Shown: one piece after another, positions 890 to 35,276 of the stretch
How the letters are laid out: every line of letters starts with the position of its first letter
Numbering within the stretch: the stretch's first letter is position 1
Assembly (NCBI GenBank): GCA_947627425.1
Contig: CANQVZ010000008.1
Location: 1-64,000, forward strand
Reading direction: 5' to 3'
Length of the DNA stretch: 64,000 nucleotides
Origin: an uncultured Clostridia bacterium
GTDB lineage: Bacteria; Bacillota; Clostridia; Lachnospirales; CAG-274
Program-made: the position numbers and the translations under genes
The notes under the pieces: model-generated
Told to the model about the DNA's origin: nothing
Databases searched by the model: none
The model's input: the letters and a program-made list of their open reading frames with translations, nothing else

Positions 890-3800
890 TTAATCCAGTC
901 CTGAAATTCTATGCGCAAAAGCAGCAAACTCTGCACGGGTCAATGTGGACTTGGGGTCAACAATGTTATTTCCTTTGCCCGCAAGTACTCCTATCTTATA
1001 GAGTATCTGCACAGCTTCTTTTGCTTCATCCGAAATGAGACTGCTGTCCGAGAATTCAACATCTCTGTCATCAGCAGTATATTTCTTTCCTGTCATATCA
1101 AGGAATTTCTTAAGTATATTGCACATATCTTCTCTTGAAATTGATGCGTCGGGGTCAAATGCAGAAGCATTTACAAGACCGGAGCTTACTGCCCATTTTG
1201 CATAAGATGTATACCACATACCGTCTCTTATCCCTGAAACGGAGGATTCAAACACAGATACATCTGCACCCGACATCTTGGCAAGAACAGTTGCTATGTT
1301 GCTCATTGTCATTGGATTCATCGGTGCAAATACCGCATTGTTATATCCTACCATATACTTATTTGCATAAGCCCACTGTACATCATCGTAATACCATGCA
1401 TTTTCATCTACATCTATAAAGTCCTTGGCTTCATCGGGAGCCTTATCGGGTACAACAAGTGTCCACCTTGCATGAAGTGTTGTATTGCTATATATCTTAT
1501 CACCCGAATTGAACTGTTTTCCATCATCTGTAAACCATCCCTCAAGCTTATAACCTTCCCTTGTGCTTGTTGGAAGCTCAAGTGCCGTATCGCCAAGTAT
1601 ATTAACAGAACCTACTTCGCTGCCTCCGTCTGTATCAAACCATACAGTGCACTGTACCTGCTCCCACTTTGCATAGAGCGTAAATGAAGTTGTTACCTTG
1701 CTGTTCTTGTCATATTCCTTTGTAAGCTCCTTATCCGTATACCAACCCACAAACTTATAACCCGGTTTTTCGGGAGTCGCAAAGAAGGTTATCTTTGAGC
1801 CTCTCTTCACAGACTGTGCCTTAACTGCAGAGCCGCCGTTGCTGTTGTATGAAACAGTGTAGGAAGGCGTTGCACCGCCACCCGAACCGCCGCTGCTCGT
1901 TCCCGTTGGTTTGCTTGGGTTCGTAGGCGTGGTTGGATTTGAAGGGGTACTCGGATTTGACGGAGTACTGGGATTTGATGGCGTATTTGGCTTGCTGCCT
2001 TTTGAATAATTGAAGTTCTGAGCAGCCTTCTTTACCTGATTGTTTGAAGTACGGTATTCTGCAGCTATTGTATGATTTCCCGTTCCTCTGTCGCTTATAG
2101 TCTGGGATTTTACGGTTATCTTAGTACTGCCTGCTTCCACATCATAGTCTACACCCGGTGTAAGCTTTTCACCATCAAACCAGAAACCTTGGAATTCATC
2201 GGCATGTTCTGCATAGTCATAAGTGAACTCAAATACCTGGTCTGTAAGAGGTGAATCTTCATTTTCCTCAATTGCAGGTATTTTCTTTATTATCTCAAAG
2301 CCTTCATCTGTCTGAGAGTCAACATAGGTATCCGTGTTGTCAAGCACATGAAGCGTAAGCTCTATCTGCTTGCTCTCAAAATAGTCCGCGCCGAAATTGG
2401 CTTGTACGGTAAATGTGAAATCACCCGTTTCAAGCGGAGTACCATAAATCTCACCCGTATTGTCATTGAATGTAACTCCATCGGGTAGTTTTCCGTCAAT
2501 CATACTGTATGTAACATCATTCCAATAATGCATATTGTTGGTAGCAACTATACTCTGATATGGTACATACTTAACAGCAGGAGCAAGCTGCTGCGTTACT
2601 ATGTCGGGATTGCCCGCCGTACCCACAAGCTTTATTTCGTACAACTCATAGTTGTTGTTCTTATCAAGTGTACCATCGGCATTGAGTCCGCCGCTTGCCT
2701 CTATGTATAATGTACCGCTTATGGAGTTCTTGCCTGTAGCTGTTACTTTGCCTCCTAAATCTACTATTTCATACTTGAAACCATTTTTTATTGCGTAGCT
2801 TAGAGCATATGAATCTGCTTCTACTTTAATTACGATTTTATCTCTATCGATATAATCAAAAGCATACTCTCCTATATATGTAACACTGCTTGGCAATGTT
2901 ATACTTGTAAGATTATCGCAGTGTTCAAAGGCAAAATCTTCAATAGATGTAACACTATTAGGAATCGTTATACTTGTTAAACTTATACAATTTTCAAATA
3001 TTCCTTCTCCAATAGATGTGACACTATCTGGAAGGGTTATACTTACCAAACTTTCGCAATCATAGAATGCGTGATTCCCAATTAATATAACATTGTTGGG
3101 AATCGTTATACTTGTTAAATTGCCACAAAATTCAAAGGCATATTCACCAATAGATGTAACATTATTAGAAAGTGTTATACTGGTTAAATTGGTACAAAAC
3201 GCAAATACCCCCTTATCGATAAATGTAAGACTTTCGGGTATAGTTATACTTGTTAAACCGCTACAATCACTAAATGCCCAACTCCCAATAGATATAACAC
3301 TGTCTGGTATTGTTATACTCTTTAAACTGCTACATATATTAAATGCGCTTTCTCCAATGGATGTAACACCATTGGGTATCTTTATGTTTGTTAAACTGCT
3401 ACAATCACTAAATGCATCATTGCCAATAGAAGTAACACCATCAGGTATTATTATACTTGTTAAACTGTCACAACCATAAAATGCAGAATCACCAATAGAT
3501 GTAATACCACTTAAAATTTCAACATTTGTAGTTGCTCCAGGAACACACAATAACTCGGTTTTATCTTTATTATATAAAACCCCATTTTGAGATGAAAAAT
3601 TTACATTATTAACACCTACATTTATACTTCTAAGTTTATGACAAGATGCAAATACGCCAATACCGATAAAACTAACATTATCAGGTATAGTTATGCTTGT
3701 TAAACTATCACACCCATAAAATGCGTTGTCTCCAATAGAAGTAACATTGTCAGGTATAGTTATATTCGTTAAACTATCACAGTTAGTAAATGCTCCATTT

Positions 3801-6454
3801 CCAATAGATATAACACTGTTAGGCATCGTTACACTTGATAAATTGATACAACCATTAAATGCAGTATCACCAATAGATGTAACTCCCTCGGGTATAGTTA
3901 TGCTTGATAAGCTATCACAACCCCAAAAAGCAGAATCACCAATAGATGTAACATTAACTCCATTAATTTTGCTCGGTATATCAACCTTTGTTATTTTTGT
4001 TATCCATTTATCTGCGTTGGTTATAGTTCCCGTTGACAAGTCAAAATAAATATTACCACCTTCTACGGGGTACGCCACTTCGTTTACATCAAGAGGCATG
4101 ATCTCGGCATCATTATTTGTCGAAACAGCTGTAAGCAGCACATCTTTCTTGGCAGAGTTGACTATATTGCTGAAAACAACATAATTATCATCCGGATCAT
4201 CATCCCCTGAGTTATCATCACCCTTGTTGTCATCAGGCGGAGTAACAGCGCTGCCGCTTTCAACATCATCACCCTTAATAAGTCTTATCTTTGCCACATT
4301 GGGCAGTTCGCTGTAATCAGAATCCGTTGATGTTGTTGTGAAGGGAGCAAGATATTGATTGTTTTCTCCGCCCACCTTCCAATAATCATCTATTTTTACA
4401 TTTTTAGCGTCATCGCTTAAATAAGCGTTGATATACATAGGCTCATCGCCTGTGTTGGCAACAAATATATCGTGCTTATCCTCAAAATATTCGTCGATAC
4501 ACACTTCTCTTGTTTTACCGTTTCCGGGACCATCAACAAAGAGCTTAGGACCGCCCGTGGTCTTTTTAACTATCGAAAGCCAATAGTTCTTAACCTTCAT
4601 ACCCGTATCGTCATCCTTCCATGCAAGGGCATACTGCTGATTTTCACGGTCAATACTTTCAGGCGCATCGGGATCCTGCAATGTGCTGCCGTTATCATTG
4701 ACCTTGTAAAGATTGAAGTAATCATTGGCAGCAAACCAAAACAGCGGTTTAAGCTTGCTTAAATCGGCATTTTCATCATTTACAAGTATAGACTGATAAC
4801 CATAACCATAGTAGGTGTCAAGGTTGTGAGAGCCGCCGTTTTCGATAACATAGCTGTCGGCACCATCAACGCCCGTGAGCCTGAAATAGGGGTCTGCTGC
4901 ACCTACAACGGGGGCTTTGCTAAAATCGGGAACTTCATACTCATTTTGAACAGTCTTAAAAATAAATTTCTGAGAACTGCCCGATTTATAAAAGAATGTC
5001 ATTCTTACACCTTTACTATAATTTGCCTTAAAACCTATATCATTGAACTGTGCCTTAATATCCTCAACAGATGCCGCTGCATCCAAAGAATCATAATATC
5101 CCAAAACTATTTTTTCTATTTCATCTGTATTAAGGCGAAGATAATATTCATCATCCGCTTTATTACCTTCTGTAAGTTCATAATTAATGGTTATAACGAT
5201 TTTTCCATCAATAGCAGAATGATTGCCACCTAAAGCCTCACCTATATCAATATTGTTCCAGTCAAAATCAACACTGAGATTATGTGTTTTCTCTACACTT
5301 ATAGGATTATTGCCTTCATATTTATTTATAGAGGCTACTTCAGGAGTTTTTTCTTTATCAATTAGGGCGACATTGAAAGCGATAAATTTTTCTTTTGAGT
5401 TCAATTTCCCCGAATTCAGCATATCAACTAAATTATAAAATTTAAAATTGTCCCAATCAATATTGTTTTCCTTATTGTTATTGTAATAGAAATAAAGGGG
5501 ATGTGTTAAGCCCTCTGTTGATATGCCGCTTAATAATTCCATTCCTGCATCAGTTTGAAGCATATCCTGATTTAACACAGATGATGTGCAACTTGGATAA
5601 TCTCCTGCAAGATTTACATCACCTGTAAGCATGTAAATCACATTATATACCATGGGATCAAATGCACTCATTGTTATATATGGATGTCTGTCTCTCAGTG
5701 ACTTTACTCCGAAAAATGTAGATTTACTCGAATCATATCCTGATTTGGGATATATTGTATATTGAAGCACATTTATTTCAGCTTTTGAAGATGTTCCCAA
5801 AAACAAGTCGCTTGCTTTAACTTTGGATTCAATAGGAACTATATCATACTCAAATGTAGTTCTGTTGCCGTTTTCATCCTGCTGATAAAGCTCCATGTCT
5901 AAAAACTCTGAAATACTGTCTGAAACATATACTCTTACAAGATAACGCACATTGTCAGGATCAAGTTGCTGCCCACTGCCAACAATCAATTCCATCGTAT
6001 AACCTGTAGTATATCCAAATTCAGACATATCGACAGTTTCATTTCTTTCAATTTCATGGTATTCATCGCGAATAACATTTCCATTTTCATCCTTAAAATG
6101 CGCCCAAACAACATTTGCATTCTTAGGAATTTCTATTTTATTCCCATCATTATCAACAAGCATATCCAACACTGTCTGTAAGGGAACAGCTTTAAGCTGT
6201 TCTTCCGTATAACCATTCAGTACGATAGCCGCCTCTTTTTCTTCCAAAGGAAGCAAAGATGTCAATGACGGAACATCTTCGTCTGCGATTTCTCCACTGC
6301 CCCAAATAATTGAACCGGGAGATTCTACACTATCCTCTGTTGCGGGCGCAGCGCTTTGTAATGCCTTATTTGCTGCCGGTGAAGCTACCGGCACGGACAT
6401 TGCCATGGCTGTTGCTAAGGCAAGAGATACTGCCCTTTTCAGTTTGTTTTTCAT
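890..6454 (-). CDS. large secreted surface protein: BspA-type LRRs, Ig-like, InlB repeats and C-terminal SLH domains
   Basis: This 1854-aa protein starts with a clear signal peptide (MKNKLKRAVSLALATAMAMS, then VPVASPAA). Residues about 200-720 hold no motif I recognise. Residues about 820-1205 carry 15 leucine-rich repeats of the BspA/LRR_5 type (consensus SITIP-x2-VTSIG-x2-AF-x2-C-x-SL), with a break after the fifth. A putative-Ig (He_PIG-like, LPDGVTFNDNTGEIYGTP) region lies near 1295-1360. A Pro/Ser/Thr linker of TPSNPS units covers about 1486-1529. Two InlB/Listeria-Bacteroides repeats (GYKFVGWYTD, GYKLEGWFTD) lie near 1532-1668, and SLH-type repeats from about 1680 to the end. The LRR and InlB parts suggest adhesion or ligand binding; the SLH part suggests anchoring to pyruvylated wall polymer. 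It is last in the minus-strand operon, 64 bp after the kinase gene. RBS: AGAGG before ATG. Confidence 0.88.
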   Translation of the reverse strand: MKNKLKRAVSLALATAMAMSVPVASPAANKALQSAAPATEDSVESPGSIIWGSGEIADEDVPSLTSLLPLEEKEAAIVLNGYTEEQLKAVPLQTVLDMLVDNDGNKIEIPKNANVVWAHFKDENGNVIRDEYHEIERNETVDMSEFGYTTGYTMELIVGSGQQLDPDNVRYLVRVYVSDSISEFLDMELYQQDENGNRTTFEYDIVPIESKVKASDLFLGTSSKAEINVLQYTIYPKSGYDSSKSTFFGVKSLRDRHPYITMSAFDPMVYNVIYMLTGDVNLAGDYPSCTSSVLNQDMLQTDAGMELLSGISTEGLTHPLYFYYNNNKENNIDWDNFKFYNLVDMLNSGKLNSKEKFIAFNVALIDKEKTPEVASINKYEGNNPISVEKTHNLSVDFDWNNIDIGEALGGNHSAIDGKIVITINYELTEGNKADDEYYLRLNTDEIEKIVLGYYDSLDAAASVEDIKAQFNDIGFKANYSKGVRMTFFYKSGSSQKFIFKTVQNEYEVPDFSKAPVVGAADPYFRLTGVDGADSYVIENGGSHNLDTYYGYGYQSILVNDENADLSKLKPLFWFAANDYFNLYKVNDNGSTLQDPDAPESIDRENQQYALAWKDDDTGMKVKNYWLSIVKKTTGGPKLFVDGPGNGKTREVCIDEYFEDKHDIFVANTGDEPMYINAYLSDDAKNVKIDDYWKVGGENNQYLAPFTTTSTDSDYSELPNVAKIRLIKGDDVESGSAVTPPDDNKGDDNSGDDDPDDNYVVFSNIVNSAKKDVLLTAVSTNNDAEIMPLDVNEVAYPVEGGNIYFDLSTGTITNADKWITKITKVDIPSKINGVNVTSIGDSAFWGCDSLSSITIPEGVTSIGDTAFNGCINLSSVTMPNSVISIGNGAFTNCDSLTNITIPDNVTSIGDNAFYGCDSLTSITIPDNVSFIGIGVFASCHKLRSINVGVNNVNFSSQNGVLYNKDKTELLCVPGATTNVEILSGITSIGDSAFYGCDSLTSIIIPDGVTSIGNDAFSDCSSLTNIKIPNGVTSIGESAFNICSSLKSITIPDSVISIGSWAFSDCSGLTSITIPESLTFIDKGVFAFCTNLTSITLSNNVTSIGEYAFEFCGNLTSITIPNNVILIGNHAFYDCESLVSITLPDSVTSIGEGIFENCISLTSITIPNSVTSIEDFAFEHCDNLTSITLPSSVTYIGEYAFDYIDRDKIVIKVEADSYALSYAIKNGFKYEIVDLGGKVTATGKNSISGTLYIEASGGLNADGTLDKNNNYELYEIKLVGTAGNPDIVTQQLAPAVKYVPYQSIVATNNMHYWNDVTYSMIDGKLPDGVTFNDNTGEIYGTPLETGDFTFTVQANFGADYFESKQIELTLHVLDNTDTYVDSQTDEGFEIIKKIPAIEENEDSPLTDQVFEFTYDYAEHADEFQGFWFDGEKLTPGVDYDVEAGSTKITVKSQTISDRGTGNHTIAAEYRTSNNQVKKAAQNFNYSKGSKPNTPSNPSTPSNPSTPSNPTTPTNPSKPTGTSSGGSGGGATPSYTVSYNSNGGSAVKAQSVKRGSKITFFATPEKPGYKFVGWYTDKELTKEYDKNSKVTTSFTLYAKWEQVQCTVWFDTDGGSEVGSVNILGDTALELPTSTREGYKLEGWFTDDGKQFNSGDKIYSNTTLHARWTLVVPDKAPDEAKDFIDVDENAWYYDDVQWAYANKYMVGYNNAVFAPMNPMTMSNIATVLAKMSGADVSVFESSVSGIRDGMWYTSYAKWAVSSGLVNASAFDPDASISREDMCNILKKFLDMTGKKYTADDRDVEFSDSSLISDEAKEAVQILYKIGVLAGKGNNIVDPKSTLTRAEFAAFAHRISGLD
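2845..3990 (-). repeat. LRR-coding tandem repeat array (about 69-bp units)
   Basis: Fifteen imperfect 69-bp units each encode a 23-residue LRR_5 repeat. The array is interrupted once, near 3500-3640, by a non-repeat stretch ending in SSQNGVLYNKDKTELLCVP, itself typical of BspA proteins. Neighbouring units share blocks such as CCAATAGATGTAACA, so slippage or recombination could change the copy number. Confidence 0.8.
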
Positions 6455-26343: not shown

Positions 26344-27352
26344 TGAATCTATCGCATATTTCAAAAGCGAAAACTTTGCAAACAATTTTACAAAGTTTAG
26401 ATATGCAACCACAAGTCAAATAAAAGAGCTATCACATAAGGGGCGAAATGCAGTAAGAGGTTTGAATCCATGGGAAGGAGACGGAATTGATTTTTGGAAG
26501 ACAACGCCAACCGAAAAGCTAAAAATTCCAGAACCGAAAACCTGCGAATTTTGCGGAGCGCCTCGAGAGTACCTAGGGCTTATTTGCAAAAGCGATAGCT
26601 TCTACGATTGGGAAATAAAAAAATGGTCTATAATTCCTCAACACTGTTGTTGCGATAAGGCACAACAACAGCACATAATCGAGGAAAAGGAAAGACAAAA
26701 AAAAGAAGCTGAAGCAAGACAGCGCATGGCTGAAGAAGCAAAAAAAGAAAAATTTAAGAAGCTTATGTTTGAAAGCGGAATAAAGCCGAGATTTCTAACT
26801 CGCACATTTGAAAATTTTTTAATAGATACGCCCGGCAGAAAAACGGCTTATACAGCAACAAAAAACTACGCTGATAATTTCTCCGCATACAGCGCCAATG
26901 GAGATGGGTTATACATCGAAGGTACATTTGGAACAGGCAAAACGCACCTAGCCGCTGCGATAGCAATACAGCTTATGCGAGACGGACACCAAGTCGTTTT
27001 TAAAACGGCAGATGATATGCTCCAAGATATTAAGGCTACATTTGACTACACAGGACGGCAAGAAAAAGAGGCTTTAAACGAGTTTAAACAGTGCGAACTG
27101 CTGATTATTGATGACATAGGCAAAGAACAAGCAACAGATTGGTCTACTGCCCAGCTCTACGCAATAATAAACGATCGCTACGAAAATCAACGACCGACAA
27201 TCATCACTACAAATTTTAATGAAGATGAATTAATAATGGCGGAGTCGCCTAAAGGCACAGGATCCCACAGGATAAAAGCCATAATAAGCCGCCTGCACGA
27301 AGTATGCACGCTAGTCACCATGTGCTGGCAAGATTGGAGGGGAACTGAATGA
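26246..27352 (+). CDS. DnaC-like helicase loader (AAA+ ATPase)
   Basis: The product has an N-terminal zinc-binding region (CEFCGAPREYLGLIC ... HCCCDKAQ) of the DnaC/DnaI type, a charged helix (EEKERQKKEAEARQRMAEEA), then an AAA+ core: Walker A GTFGTGKTHLA (about 226-236), Walker B LLIIDDIGKE (D289/D290) and sensor region IITTNFNEDEL. It loads the replicative helicase at the phage origin. GTG codons at 26,237, 26,243 and 26,246 are all possible; 26,246 gives the best spacing (8 bp) to AGGAGG. Ends in a 4-bp ATGA overlap with recU. Confidence 0.88.
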   Translation: MQKTMTPERPITLPLDKARDLEKQIQSQILTTDESIAYFKSENFANNFTKFRYATTSQIKELSHKGRNAVRGLNPWEGDGIDFWKTTPTEKLKIPEPKTCEFCGAPREYLGLICKSDSFYDWEIKKWSIIPQHCCCDKAQQQHIIEEKERQKKEAEARQRMAEEAKKEKFKKLMFESGIKPRFLTRTFENFLIDTPGRKTAYTATKNYADNFSAYSANGDGLYIEGTFGTGKTHLAAAIAIQLMRDGHQVVFKTADDMLQDIKATFDYTGRQEKEALNEFKQCELLIIDDIGKEQATDWSTAQLYAIINDRYENQRPTIITTNFNEDELIMAESPKGTGSHRIKAIISRLHEVCTLVTMCWQDWRGTE

Positions 27353-27930
27353 CAAGATACGCCAACAGAGGGATGACCTTTGAAGGGCTTATAGAATTTT
27401 CCAACAGACAATGTTGCCAGAGCGGAGAGGCAATTGTCGAAAAACAACACACGCTTTGTAAGCCATTACGAAATGCACAGGGTAAAATCGTAAGCGCAAA
27501 ATACGAAGAAAAGGCAACTGTAGATTTTGTAGGAAGAATAGGATCGCGACCAATAGCGTTTGAAGCAAAACACTGCTCAACAGATAAAATTGACATTAAG
27601 CGAGTGGAAGAACACCAGTGTGCTTTTTTGCGAAACTGGACGGAAGAAACAGCTGCAATAGGATTTGTAATAATAAGCTTCAACCTGCAGAGCTTTTACA
27701 TAGTACCGTGGCAATATTGGGAAGCAGCAAAAGAAGCCAAGAAAACAAAACAAAAATCCGTTGTAGTATTCAGTCCTATAGGCACGGCATGGCAAGTAAC
27801 AGGGAAAGCAAGTATAAAAAAAGACGAACTGCCACCAGAGTGGGAAGTAAAAACAGGCGGCAAATATGGTCTTGATTGGATCGGCACAGTAAAAAGACTA
27901 TGGCTAATAAACGGAGGCAGAGAGCAATGA
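27349..27930 (+). CDS. recU: RecU-type Holliday junction resolvase
   Basis: The 193-aa protein carries the PD-(D/E)xK core of RecU: an N-terminal RGMTFEGLIE, then ATVDFVGRIGSRPIAFEAKH, IKRVEEHQCAFLRNW and a C-terminal barrel-like segment (AAIGFVIISFNLQSFYIVPW). The length matches RecU enzymes of Firmicutes and their phages. It would resolve Holliday junctions during phage recombination and before packaging. Both ends overlap neighbours by 4 bp (ATGA). Confidence 0.88.
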   Translation: MTRYANRGMTFEGLIEFSNRQCCQSGEAIVEKQHTLCKPLRNAQGKIVSAKYEEKATVDFVGRIGSRPIAFEAKHCSTDKIDIKRVEEHQCAFLRNWTEETAAIGFVIISFNLQSFYIVPWQYWEAAKEAKKTKQKSVVVFSPIGTAWQVTGKASIKKDELPPEWEVKTGGKYGLDWIGTVKRLWLINGGREQ

Positions 27931-28394
27931 AAGAGATTTTGACGCTAGGCTCATTGTTTGACGGTGCCGGTGGTTTTCCATACGCAGGGATGCTGGCAGG
28001 AATTGTGCCGATATGGGCTTCAGAAATAGAGCCATTCCCTATTAGGGTAACAACCCGAAGATTTCCAAATATGAAACATTTAGGAAATATAAAGGACATA
28101 AATGGAGCCGAAGTAGCTCCTGTAGATATAATAACCTTCGGAAGCCCATGCCAAGATTTATCGGTAGCAGGCAACAGATCAGGTCTTAAAGGAGAACGAT
28201 CGGGGCTATTTAAAGAAGCAATACGGATAATACGAGAAATGAGGGAAAAGACCAATGGACGCAAACCAACTTACATTGTATGGGAAAATGTCCCCGGAGC
28301 CTTCAGCAGCAATAAGGGAGAGGATTTCCGAATCGTCCTCGAAGAGATTGCAAAAATCAAAGATGTTCGGGGGGGGGAGACTATCAATACCTAG
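27927..28394 (+). CDS. cytosine-C5 DNA methyltransferase, N-terminal part (frame broken at a 9-G tract)
   Basis: 155 aa with the first catalytic motifs of Dcm-type enzymes: motif I TLGSLFDGAGGFPYAG, motif IV GSPCQDLSVAGNRSGL with the catalytic cysteine of PCQ, and motif VI WENVPGAFSS. The frame then enters nine G residues (28,369-28,377) and stops 6 codons later (GGETINT). With eight (or eleven) G the frame would read on into RLSIPRPNKGKW and the remaining motifs encoded by the next feature. So the gene is either phase-OFF, decayed, or carries a homopolymer sequencing error. Overlaps recU by 4 bp. Confidence 0.85.
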   Translation: MKEILTLGSLFDGAGGFPYAGMLAGIVPIWASEIEPFPIRVTTRRFPNMKHLGNIKDINGAEVAPVDIITFGSPCQDLSVAGNRSGLKGERSGLFKEAIRIIREMREKTNGRKPTYIVWENVPGAFSSNKGEDFRIVLEEIAKIKDVRGGETINT

Positions 28395-29796
28395 ACCTAA
28401 CAAAGGAAAATGGAAACCCGCAGGAGAGGTGCTGGGAGATGGTTACAGTATCGCGTGGAGAACCTATGACGCTCAATATTGGGGAGTACCCCAGAGAAGA
28501 AAGAGAATCTATCTTGTCGCAGATTTTGGAGGGCATAGTGCCGGACAAATACAATTTAAGTCCGACCGCCTGCTCAGGAATCCTACGCAGAGCAGAACAG
28601 AGAGGAAAAGAACTGCCGGAGCTTCTGAGGATAACCCTTCTCAACCAACAGCGGGGGGGGTGAAAGCCAAAGTATACGAAAACCACGCCAATGACAGCCG
28701 TATAAAAGAGCTTGGAAAAGTAGGAGAAACAGTAACTACAAGATACGGCACAGGCGGAAACAACACTCCTATAGTGGTTCAGGAACGAACCCCGACAGTA
28801 TATAGCTTATCAAGCAAAGGAAGCGAAGCATGGCTGAGCGATAACCCACATAGCGGCTGCCATGAGGTCGAAGTTACAAGAACGCTTGATACGAACGGAG
28901 GAAACCCAAACTGCGCGCAGGGAGGCAACATAGTGATACAACCAAAGCCGTATACCGTAGGAAACGGACAAGTGGACGGAGCTACACACCTTGACCCTTT
29001 ATGCAAGACACTTAACTGTATGCACGATCCTATGATCGTTTTAATTCCGCAGGAAAAACCAGCATACGGCATAGACAGGGCAGCGTTCAATCAAGGCAAA
29101 AACGCTCGGTATAATTCTAGTATAGAGGAGGAGTTGGAGCCTTGCCTTGTAGCAAAAGGACCTAATGCTGTGGCAGTGCCGCAAGACAGCGATCAGTATC
29201 CATACATAGCAAGGAGGCTCATGCCGATAGAGTGTTGCAGGCTACAAGGATACCCAGACTATTGGACAAAGGATATAGCAACGCCAGAGCCGACAGAAAC
29301 GGAAATAGACTGGTGGCAAAAGGCGTTCGAAGCGCATCGAAAAGCTACAAATCCAAACGGCAAACCAAAGACACGCAATCAAATACGGAAATGGCTTCAA
29401 AGCCCGCAGACAGACAGCGCTGAATACAAAATGTGGGGTAATTCGTTAGCGATACCGTGCGCATACACAGTACTGGCGGGGATTGCCGAAGTTTTAACCA
29501 AATGCAAAGGAGTGGGTAGACAACGAATGGAACAGAACGGTCAGGAAACTCCTTCACCCGGATCCAGAGGCGAAAGAAATGACGGAGGTGAATATATGGA
29601 CGAAATAACCATGATGCCAACCAGAAGATGCAAAAGGTGCGGGCGACTACTATTCAGCTCGGACGCATTAAGGACAGGGTACGGTTGCCAATGTGCCAAA
29701 AAAGCAAAGAAGGAGGACATGGAAAAGCGACCCGATCCGAACCAAATAACCTTGTTTAATCTTGAAACCAAAAAAGAAAGCGAAGTGAAAGAATGA
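28255..29796 (+). CDS. cytosine-C5 DNA methyltransferase, C-terminal part with DUF6011-like zinc tail
   Basis: In the frame shifted by one base, the segment downstream of the G tract holds GDGYSIAWRTYDAQYWGVPQ, RRKRIYLVADF (motif VIII), a long target-recognition region, then RRLMPIECCRLQGYPDYW (motif IX) and GNSLAIPCAYTVLAGI (motif X). After motif X a zinc tail follows (CKRCGRLLFSSDALRTGYGC then QC), as in DUF6011 proteins, an unusual fusion. The ATG at 28,255 lies inside the N-terminal gene in another frame and is probably not the natural start; the intact enzyme would be about 622 aa from 27,927 to 29,796. A second tract of eight G (28,653-28,660) lies before the recognition region. Confidence 0.82.
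   Translation: MDANQLTLYGKMSPEPSAAIRERISESSSKRLQKSKMFGGGRLSIPRPNKGKWKPAGEVLGDGYSIAWRTYDAQYWGVPQRRKRIYLVADFGGHSAGQIQFKSDRLLRNPTQSRTERKRTAGASEDNPSQPTAGGVKAKVYENHANDSRIKELGKVGETVTTRYGTGGNNTPIVVQERTPTVYSLSSKGSEAWLSDNPHSGCHEVEVTRTLDTNGGNPNCAQGGNIVIQPKPYTVGNGQVDGATHLDPLCKTLNCMHDPMIVLIPQEKPAYGIDRAAFNQGKNARYNSSIEEELEPCLVAKGPNAVAVPQDSDQYPYIARRLMPIECCRLQGYPDYWTKDIATPEPTETEIDWWQKAFEAHRKATNPNGKPKTRNQIRKWLQSPQTDSAEYKMWGNSLAIPCAYTVLAGIAEVLTKCKGVGRQRMEQNGQETPSPGSRGERNDGGEYMDEITMMPTRRCKRCGRLLFSSDALRTGYGCQCAKKAKKEDMEKRPDPNQITLFNLETKKESEVKE
28369..28377 (+). repeat. poly-G tract (G9) at the frameshift in the methyltransferase
   Basis: Nine consecutive G residues between the codons for KDV and RLSIP. The reading frame needs 3n+2 G (8 or 11) to join the two halves; nine gives a stop after a few codons. 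Tracts of this kind slip readily during replication and are a standard phase-variation switch in other bacteria. Confidence 0.85.
28653..28660 (+). repeat. second poly-G tract (G8) in the methyltransferase
   Basis: Eight G residues in codons for TAGGVK. Loss of one G creates an immediate TGA; gain of one leads to a stop about 12 codons on. Either change would cut the enzyme before its target-recognition region. Confidence 0.8.
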
Positions 29797-30185
29797 GAGA
29801 TATACTTTTTAGAGCGAAAAGCGCAGATAAATTTGACGAAGGCAAATGGTTGAATGGGAGCTATGTCTATTTTAACAGCACACATAGAATTTATAATAAT
29901 AAATTTCCGTCAGAAGGGTGGGATTGGTGCTTTATAAATCCCGATACGGTCGGGCAGTACATAGGAAGGCTTGACATGGGCAAAAATAAGATTTTTGAAG
30001 ACGACATATTATATGCCATGATGCCTTATGACACAGAAATAGGAAAGGTTATATGGAACATCGAAGCGGCAGGATTTTACTTAGAAACGGCAGGCGGGCT
30101 TATAGACTTTGATGATTTGAAAAGCGGTGATATAGCGGTGATTGGAAACATACACGACAATCCCAAGCTACTGGAGGAGGAATAA
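29793..30185 (+). CDS. YopX family protein (copy 1)
   Basis: 130 aa with the family pattern: MRDILFRAKSADKFDEGKWL, GSYVYF, NPDTVGQYIGRLDMGKNKIF, EDDILYAMM, ... VIGNIHDNPKLL. YopX proteins form a small beta-rich fold and occur in many Firmicutes phages and prophages; their biochemical role is unknown. Overlaps the methyltransferase stop by 4 bp. A paralogue lies at 30,575. Confidence 0.88.
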   Translation: MRDILFRAKSADKFDEGKWLNGSYVYFNSTHRIYNNKFPSEGWDWCFINPDTVGQYIGRLDMGKNKIFEDDILYAMMPYDTEIGKVIWNIEAAGFYLETAGGLIDFDDLKSGDIAVIGNIHDNPKLLEEE

Positions 30186-33722: not shown

Positions 33723-35276
33723 ATGGCAAGACGGAAAACACCAAAGAAAATTACATACCAATCACAGGCGGAAGCCAGAACAGAAGCTGGCGGCATTCCT
33801 GTGTTCTGTGCGTTTGACAAATTGATTAACCCGAAGGATTTAATCGGAAATCCAAGAAATCCGAACCACCACCCGAAGGAACAAATAGAATTACTGGCAC
33901 ACATAATACAATCGCAGGGCTGGCGCGCGCCGATAACCGTGAGCAATCAGAGCGGATTTGTTGTGCGCGGACACGGAAGACTGGCAGCGGCTTTATATTT
34001 TAAGGCGGAGGCTGTCCCCGTCGATTACCAAAACTACTCTAACGAGGCAGAGGAATGGGCGGATCTAATCGCGGACAACAGACTGGCAGAACTATCCGAC
34101 ATCGACAACACAAAAATAGTCGAGCTGATCGCGGATTTAGACACAGGAGAGGTTCCTGTCATATTGACAGGCTACGATGAGGATGAAATAAATAACATAT
34201 TGGCGGCAATGGCAGGTGAAGGAGACGCAGAAGCCGACGGCATAGACGAAGTGACGCCACCGCCAGAAATACCCATGTCGCAGCCCGGAGATTTATGGCT
34301 TTTAGGTGAACACCGAGTAATATGTGGAAGCGCAACAGATAAAGCAACGATTGAGAGGCTTATGGATGGCGAAAAAGCGAGCTGCGTATGGACGGATCCT
34401 CCATACGGAGTAAGTTACACAGGCGGTGAAGGTAAGACATGGGACATGCTTAACTCAGATGATAAAACAGGCGACGACCTAATGGGCGAGTTATTAATTC
34501 CTAGTTTTAAGAATATGGCAGAAAATACCGAAGATACAGCAGCTTTTTATATATGGTATGCGTCAAATAGGCGCAGAGATTTTGAAGATGCCATGACTGC
34601 CGTGGGACTGTTAGAAAAGCAGCAAATAATATGGGTAAAAAATAATTTCCAAATGGGACATGCAAATTATCACTGGGGACACGAACCCTGCTTTTATGCC
34701 GAAAAAGCAGGATACAGTGCAGATTTTTACGGAGACAGAACAAATCAAACTGTATGGCGAGTGTGCAGACGAACTAAAAGCGATATAGCAACAACCATAA
34801 CAGGCGGAATACTTATAACAGACGGCAGCGGCGGCAAAATGTATATTGTCGAAAAAGCGCCGAAGGACAAAAAAACAAGATATATAAGACTGTCCGAGAA
34901 AGACACAGCTTACCTCTACTCAGACAACAAAACAAGTACGGCGTGGGAAGTATCAAGAGAATCAAAATACGAACACCCCACACAAAAACCCGTTGAATTG
35001 GCAACAAGAGCAATAGAAAACAGCACTAAAGAGGGAGAAATCGTCCTTGACCTTTTCGGGGGCAGCGGAACAGCCCTTATAGGCGCAGAATTGACCCACA
35101 GACGGGCATATATAGCAGAGCTTACACCGAAATACACAGATGTAATAGTTAATCGTTATGTAAGGCTCACAGGCAATGTCGGGGGGGGTTGCGTAAGAAA
35201 TGGTAAAACTATACCATATGCACAACTTAAGGAGGAAAACAACCGAGCGAACGGAAGAGAAAGCGAAATGAGGTGA
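33723..35276 (+). CDS. ParB-like domain fused to DNA N4/N6 methyltransferase
   Basis: 517 aa. Residues about 30-150 are a ParB/sulfiredoxin-like nuclease domain (LIGNPRNPNHHPKEQIELLA, FVVRGHGRLAAALYF, WADLIADNRLAEL). The C-terminal part is a beta-class DNA methylase: motif IV TDPPYGVSYTGG and motif I VLDLFGGSGTALIGAEL, with SATDKATIERLM before the catalytic site. Such fusions sit beside terminase genes in many phages and probably protect phage DNA or mark it for packaging. A G8 tract (35,181-35,188) lies 30 codons before the stop. Changing its length would only alter the last residues. Confidence 0.9.
   Translation: MARRKTPKKITYQSQAEARTEAGGIPVFCAFDKLINPKDLIGNPRNPNHHPKEQIELLAHIIQSQGWRAPITVSNQSGFVVRGHGRLAAALYFKAEAVPVDYQNYSNEAEEWADLIADNRLAELSDIDNTKIVELIADLDTGEVPVILTGYDEDEINNILAAMAGEGDAEADGIDEVTPPPEIPMSQPGDLWLLGEHRVICGSATDKATIERLMDGEKASCVWTDPPYGVSYTGGEGKTWDMLNSDDKTGDDLMGELLIPSFKNMAENTEDTAAFYIWYASNRRRDFEDAMTAVGLLEKQQIIWVKNNFQMGHANYHWGHEPCFYAEKAGYSADFYGDRTNQTVWRVCRRTKSDIATTITGGILITDGSGGKMYIVEKAPKDKKTRYIRLSEKDTAYLYSDNKTSTAWEVSRESKYEHPTQKPVELATRAIENSTKEGEIVLDLFGGSGTALIGAELTHRRAYIAELTPKYTDVIVNRYVRLTGNVGGGCVRNGKTIPYAQLKEENNRANGRESEMR
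35181..35188 (+). repeat. poly-G tract (G8) near the 3' end of the ParB-methylase
   Basis: Eight G residues in codons for VGGGC. Seven G would end the protein at once (VGGVA then stop) and nine would end it after LRKKW, so only a tail of about 25 residues varies. Third poly-G tract of at least eight bases in this window, again in a DNA methyltransferase. Confidence 0.75.

Follow-up and report, generated by a model that had tools for sequence, protein, structure and literature searches.

The 64,000-nucleotide (nt) stretch analysed here (the window) covers positions 1–64,000 of contig CANQVZ010000008.1 from an uncultured Clostridia bacterium. It contains a prophage, which carries a gene for a predicted cytosine-C5 DNA methyltransferase (MTase) of the orphan type; the coding sequence of this gene is divided between two reading frames at a run of nine G. 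Related genes carry poly-G tracts at the corresponding position, and these differ in length between relatives that are otherwise near-identical. It is very probable that slippage of this coding tract, which is located between motifs VI and VIII, resets the product of the prophage enzyme. A second open reading frame (ORF), here called Y, is conserved, overlaps the gene and contains the tract as well; it was overlooked in an earlier interpretation of the letters alone (the sequence-only reading).

A G9 tract divides the methyltransferase gene

The features of the locus are as follows.

27927–28394, + strand: N-chain of the C5-methyltransferase, motifs I–VI, 155 amino acids (aa); from PF00145, PHROG_116, PDLC03715 and translation
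28241–28257, + strand: Shine-Dalgarno (SD)-like GAGGG (28241–28245) and ATG (28255–28257) of Y; from the window sequence and relatives
28255–29796, + strand: 513-aa ORF, running from the nested start across the G9 tract through motif VIII, the recognition region and motifs IX and X; from PF00145 and PDLC03715
28369–28377, + strand: site-1 tract (tract 1), G9, the frame boundary, within both overlapping frames; from the sequence
28466–28663, + strand: conserved C-terminal part of Y, read in +1 relative to motif VIII; from relatives and tblastn (matches in 132 of 50,697 phage records)
28653–28660, + strand: site-2 tract (tract 2), G8, located where Y ends and in register with the MTase frame; from the sequence

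In profile searches, the N frame (27927–28391) matched positions 3–132 of the 324 positions of PF00145 (2.1e-27), and the C frame, within the 513-aa ORF, matched positions 134–296 (1e-12). The halves adjoin each other on the profile, therefore the frame change sits at the tract, where the sequence-only reading had also placed it. The orphan-MTase model oMTase PDLC03715, the best PADLOC model for the gene, spans both parts as well; the N part lies at positions 4–145 of 719 and the C part reaches position 711. The setting is a prophage, and the neighbouring genes are annotated in part. The activity predicted for the gene is that of a prophage orphan cytosine-C5 DNA methyltransferase. Motifs I, IV, VI, VIII, IX and X were read by eye in the PF00145 domain that is matched across the two frames.

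The N-chain ends just past the G9 tract, after motif VI. The tract is a simple repeat in coding sequence, and a change of one unit shifts the frame. With a tract one base shorter, the 1870 nt from 27927 to 29796 encode 622 aa, as had been calculated earlier; the second tract that had been named at 28653 is also present, and its eight G fit the register of the MTase frame.

Relatives carry tracts of differing length at the same position

The sequence-only reading had named tract lengths in relatives as a check on its proposed switch. Their comparison revealed recurrence at the same place, differences confined to the tract, changes of frame, and cultured phages that differ from one another. In a scan of a viral collection, at least eight consecutive G were found 68–98 nt before motif VIII in 37 contigs, and at least eight consecutive C at this distance in none. 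At least six G are present at site 1 in 64 contigs of the collection. Over 65 places, the site-1 lengths are 6 (8 places), 7 (20), 8 (21), 9 (11), 10 (3), 11 (1) and 13 (1), with 3 of the 65 lacking an assignable frame. The lengths peak at 7–8, whereas chance predicts a four- to five-fold fall per base.

Near-identical contig pairs, which carry different metagenome numbers, have no indel other than a change in tract length. L294 and L313 (both G8) are identical to L314 (G9) over 5,145 and 5,094 nt, on one side; L297 (G9) and L299 (G8) differ by 2 substitutions in 8.5 kb; L291 (G8) and L325 (G7) have no mismatches in 3.1 kb. Between L294/L313 and L314, and between L291 and L325, the frame changes from in register to out of register or the reverse; between L297 and L299 the change is from one out-of-register frame to another. 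Cultured mycobacteriophages also differ in the homologous gene, which has G8 in Dove, G9 in Beem and Phoebus and G10 in JuicyJay, with no mismatches over 1,269 and 1,042 nt. The nearest relative of the window gene, L160, has a G10 tract in frame, within a single open frame of 568 codons. As far as the sequences of relatives can speak, phase variation by slippage is well supported, and slippage would probably also take place in the window's own lineage.

Counting the window, 37 alleles with at least eight G have an assignable frame; 21 are in register, 12 are in the register of the window and 4 are in the third one. For the 28 distinct alleles among such tracts, the corresponding numbers are 16, 10 and 2. 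We also compared 175 distinct MTase genes, drawn from viral and genome contigs after leaving out 4 of 234 loci without one half and 55 of 230 near-duplicates, with their flanks. G or C tracts of at least 8 numbered 9 in the 305 kb of genes versus 3 in the 1.82 Mb of flanks (binomial p 3.8e-6), and 7 versus 2 without the window. As judged by tblastn frames, a frame difference between the N and C parts was seen in 3 of 7 genes with a tract versus 2 of the 168 others.

If the frame were corrected at transcription or translation rather than through slippage of the DNA, by polymerase slippage or by ribosomal frameshifting on the G run, the tract would be of the suitable, slippery kind, and recoding is used by other genes (excerpts of PMC3711429). 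However, the DNA lengths differ between near-identical relatives and all three registers occur, and we consider such correction improbable. Homopolymers are error-prone, and the G9 might be an assembly or sequencing error of a truly shorter tract. Such an error would leave unexplained both the presence of tracts of this kind in this gene and the isolate-level differences in cultured phages; it appears even less probable than recoding.

Several points weigh against the slippage switch. The tract was present in only 7 of the 175 sampled MTase genes and is a minority trait. Among the 16 distinct in-register genes, 8 have a renewed stop no more than 330 nt past motif VIII, and in some in-register genes the downstream stops precede any second tract. 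The mycobacteriophage gene is also broken again downstream of its tract, and the length changes may be neutral. Breaks of more than one kind are present in part of the MTase family, through decay or through some form of use. For the window lineage, no close relative turned up with which to compare it, and the window's G9 could itself be an assembly error.

The renewed stops in half of the distinct in-register relatives are also what a plain pseudogene would predict, with the tract as a mutational hotspot that arose by chance and the shift of frame as one step of decay. Different from this expectation, the window gene has one frame change in 1.87 kb, all its motifs and the start of Y are kept, and its neighbours are open; in many lineages the tracts sit at the same place and consist of G only. 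Of ten long ORFs sampled near the MTase gene, nine were matched to PHROGs phage families along most of the ORF; general prophage decay was therefore not seen. Plain decay of the gene seems to us hardly likely.

These mycobacteriophages have their MTase annotated as two genes, with the variable G tract (L347:2016-2024 in Dallas) and, in the isolates translated, an extra frame break ∼150 nt past it. L323 carries seven further tracts within 2.4 kb. At site 2, the scans returned at least eight G in 0 contigs and at least eight C in 4; these scans used one motif and undercount, because most loci with tracts 276–327 nt after site 1 were not returned.

A conserved overlapping ORF, Y, spans the tract

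The stop codon of Y, TGA (28661–28663), follows directly after tract 2. Motif VIII is recognisable in 137 of the 175 MTase genes, the remaining 38 being without the motif-VIII pattern. In 123 of the 137, a conserved segment is present in the +1 frame exactly 23 codons after motif VIII; 14 are without the Y motif. Codon-position variability in the 123 genes follows the MTase frame before motif VIII and the Y frame in codons 20–50 after it, where the third codon position of Y is the most variable.

The part of Y upstream of motif VIII was analysed in 118 genes that are tractless and open in the MTase frame. Y is open from −219 to motif VIII in 115 of them, compared to 22.8 expected from synonymous-codon shuffling; in the controls, the third frame gave 1 versus 0.6 expected and an upstream stretch gave 0 versus 0.3. 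Stops in the Y frame disappear from about −210 onward. Start and SD-like site were counted in 116 of the 118 genes. The ATG, 12 nt past the last upstream stop, was found in 113 (70.0 expected), and the SD-like site was also found in 113 (25.2 expected). Y is 128–142 aa in length in relatives. These patterns show selection on the Y frame; the protein itself is probably made.

By tblastn, Y was found in 181 of 50,697 phage records. Among 72,556 plasmid records, 532 had a match; Escherichia accounts for 449 of these, and, judging by size and annotation, many of the plasmid matches are probably P1-like. Among the phage matches listed, every annotated Y match lies inside a gene called methyltransferase, methylase or hypothetical. 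We read the unannotated +1-frame ORF directly in Streptococcus phage Javan105, Vibrio phage 138, mycobacteriophage Dallas and P1; in P1 it lies inside dmt (L362:2222-2710), is 162 aa in length and contains the conserved Y segment. Structure prediction of Y gave a mean predicted local distance difference test score (pLDDT) of 57.7, and only residues 90–129, which form two helices, are confident. Y had no hit in Pfam, a value of 0.0044 in PHROGs and nothing useful in the PDB by sequence.

As a separate candidate, we considered a compensatory cassette between tracts 1 and 2, with two alternative recognition domains. It was set aside: tract 2 does sit at the stop of Y, but the start and ribosome site mark Y as an ORF in its own right. 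No allele was seen that proves continuity from the N part through Y to the C part.

Predicted products of the different registers

Tract 1 is located inside both the MTase frame and Y, therefore every slip alters two genes together. Slippage would set the register of the MTase and of Y jointly. In one register, a one-chain enzyme would be produced along with the whole of Y. In the G9 register of the window, the N-chain would stop after motif VI, and ribosomes starting at the site of Y would make the 513-aa chain, which contains motifs VIII–X. The sequence-only reading had called the G9 state a phase-OFF switch. Its slippage part stood, in view of the tract lengths and frames of relatives; the OFF part is less firm, since the conserved nested start at 28255 would give the 513-aa chain and a two-chain enzyme is possible. 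We infer that activity is lost in the G9 register. Most likely, the switch would keep both modified and unmodified members in a phage or prophage population. The probable benefit for the population is that phage DNA modification is hedged against host defences, namely restriction that depends on the mark or targets it.

The G9 register may instead be a split state rather than an inactive one. The N-chain (motifs I–VI) and the 513-aa chain (motifs VIII–X) would together form a two-chain MTase, perhaps of altered activity, and Y would be lost. The 513-aa ORF uses the conserved SD-like site and ATG, and the distinct out-of-register alleles with at least eight G favour the register of the window by 10 versus 2 (9 versus 2 without the window), a small sample of related genes. 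Natural two-chain enzymes exist in M.AquI and M.EcoHK31I, in which the motifs are likewise divided over two polypeptides, and fragments of M.SssI complement each other; however, the shortest N fragments of M.SssI did not complement a C fragment that begins past motif VIII (excerpts of PMC3404938). The N-chain of the window also ends before motif VIII, although its C-chain is longer. Different from M.AquI and M.EcoHK31I, whose larger chain holds motifs I–VIII, the window N-chain stops past motif VI, and tract length sets the division. The small chain of M.EcoHK31I is reportedly nested in another frame. We regard a working two-chain enzyme as unlikely.

A wider proposal, possible but rather doubtful, is a three-position switch on two overlapping genes. 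The first position would give the one-chain MTase plus Y; the second, the window's register, a two-chain MTase without Y, with the C-chain made from the ribosome site of Y; the third, a fusion that joins the N-half to the conserved helices at the C-terminus of Y, and no MTase. Y would be an ancient, unrecognised protein inside phage C5-MTases, from Firmicutes phages to P1 and mycobacteriophages. The same phages would slip tracts in MT-A70 and PAPS-reductase-like genes, forming a phage-borne switchable modification set.

Comparison with known systems

Slipping tracts in bacterial methyltransferase genes and orphan methyltransferases in phages are each well known. Bacterial Type III mod and Type I systems, including phasevarions, are switched ON and OFF by slippage of coding repeats in a DNA methyltransferase (excerpts of PMC13076061 and PMC12707154). 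In common with these phase-variable bacterial methyltransferases, the window gene carries a simple repeat within its coding sequence. Different from bacterial phasevarions, its enzyme is a phage-borne C5 orphan, its tract is shared with a conserved overlapping gene, and several tracts per gene are possible. Its likeness to the phage orphan methyltransferases lies in the PDLC03715 match, and P1 dmt carries the same nested ORF; unlike the window gene, P1 Dmt is annotated as bifunctional, with N6-adenine and perhaps C5-cytosine specificity.

The contingency loci of Campylobacter have long poly-G tracts of variable length, and the tracts described here are alike in both respects. Unlike in Campylobacter, the relevant tracts are in phage modification genes, and most host tracts are in intergenic repeats. 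In searches of the open-licence literature of PubMed Central, which did not extend to reading the original P1 genome paper, no report was found of poly-G phase variation in phage C5-methyltransferases, nor of a nested ORF in these enzymes. The combination of switch tract and nested ORF in a phage looks new. If it is true, phages, and not only bacteria, vary DNA modification by slippage, which bears on the passage of phages through restriction and modification-dependent defences. Y would be an added protein in a widespread phage enzyme family that includes P1, a well-studied laboratory phage in which Y is directly testable.

Long G tracts in the window and the host genome

The G runs of the window have lengths of 8, 8 and 9, and none has 6 or 7. 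Three runs of at least eight compare to 0.38 expected under a first-order Markov model of the window; two are in this MTase gene and the third (35181–35188) is in another methyltransferase gene. The statement of the sequence-only reading that long G tracts are rare needs correction for the genome as a whole. All 75 contigs of the genome (2.10 Mb) contain together 51 G6 runs, 10 G7 runs and 29 distinct tracts of at least eight G. Of these, 16–18 belong to two intergenic repeat elements that each terminate in G8 (L178–L200, from the host's own genome; our interpretation), therefore the genome-wide excess consists mostly of repeats and not of contingency loci. A Campylobacter-like poly-G contingency genome, suggested for the host by the raw counts (29 versus 10 G7), was rejected for this reason. 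Several family members likewise show a raw excess of tracts of at least eight G over G7. Also in the host genome, a G9 between ORFs of 165 aa and 445 aa (L198:2050-2058, G000:C57) might be one more locus of slippage.

Tracts in other modification genes and the prophage context

Two further features belong to the surroundings of the MTase gene.

16488–63129 (approximate extent), no strand: prophage with the MTase locus; from phage-family matches and long open ORFs
35181–35188, + strand: in-frame G8 past the methylase domain, close to the 3′ end of a second methyltransferase gene; from profile search

The second methyltransferase gene (33723–35276) is of the N6_N4_Mtase family and has a ParB-like N part. 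A tract at the tail of such a gene was found in only 2 contigs in the scan and is not a recurrent site.

Tracts were also present in two other kinds of genes. MT-A70 adenine methyltransferase genes with G9–G10 were found in L294 (13083–13679, − strand), L286 (7893–8583, − strand) and L289 (6544–7368, − strand); the tract of L294 reads through, and that of L286 is in another register. PAPS-reductase-like genes with G9–G11 tracts are present in L297, L309, L317 and L318. The near-identical L317 (G10) and L318 (G9) differ in the PAPS-reductase-like tract, and also at site 1. The presence of MT-A70 and PAPS-reductase-like tracts in the same phages fits with hedging of DNA modification.

The prophage ORFs that match phage families include a serine integrase, a CI-like repressor, replication genes, RecU, terminase, portal, tape measure, baseplate and tail fibre. 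The MTase gene is preceded by RecU (27349–27930) and followed by a YopX-like gene (29793–30185). Outside the prophage, a gene at 890–6454 (− strand) encodes a large surface-type protein with BspA leucine-rich repeats and an S-layer domain; a run of eight C (827–834) is located just past its 3′ end.
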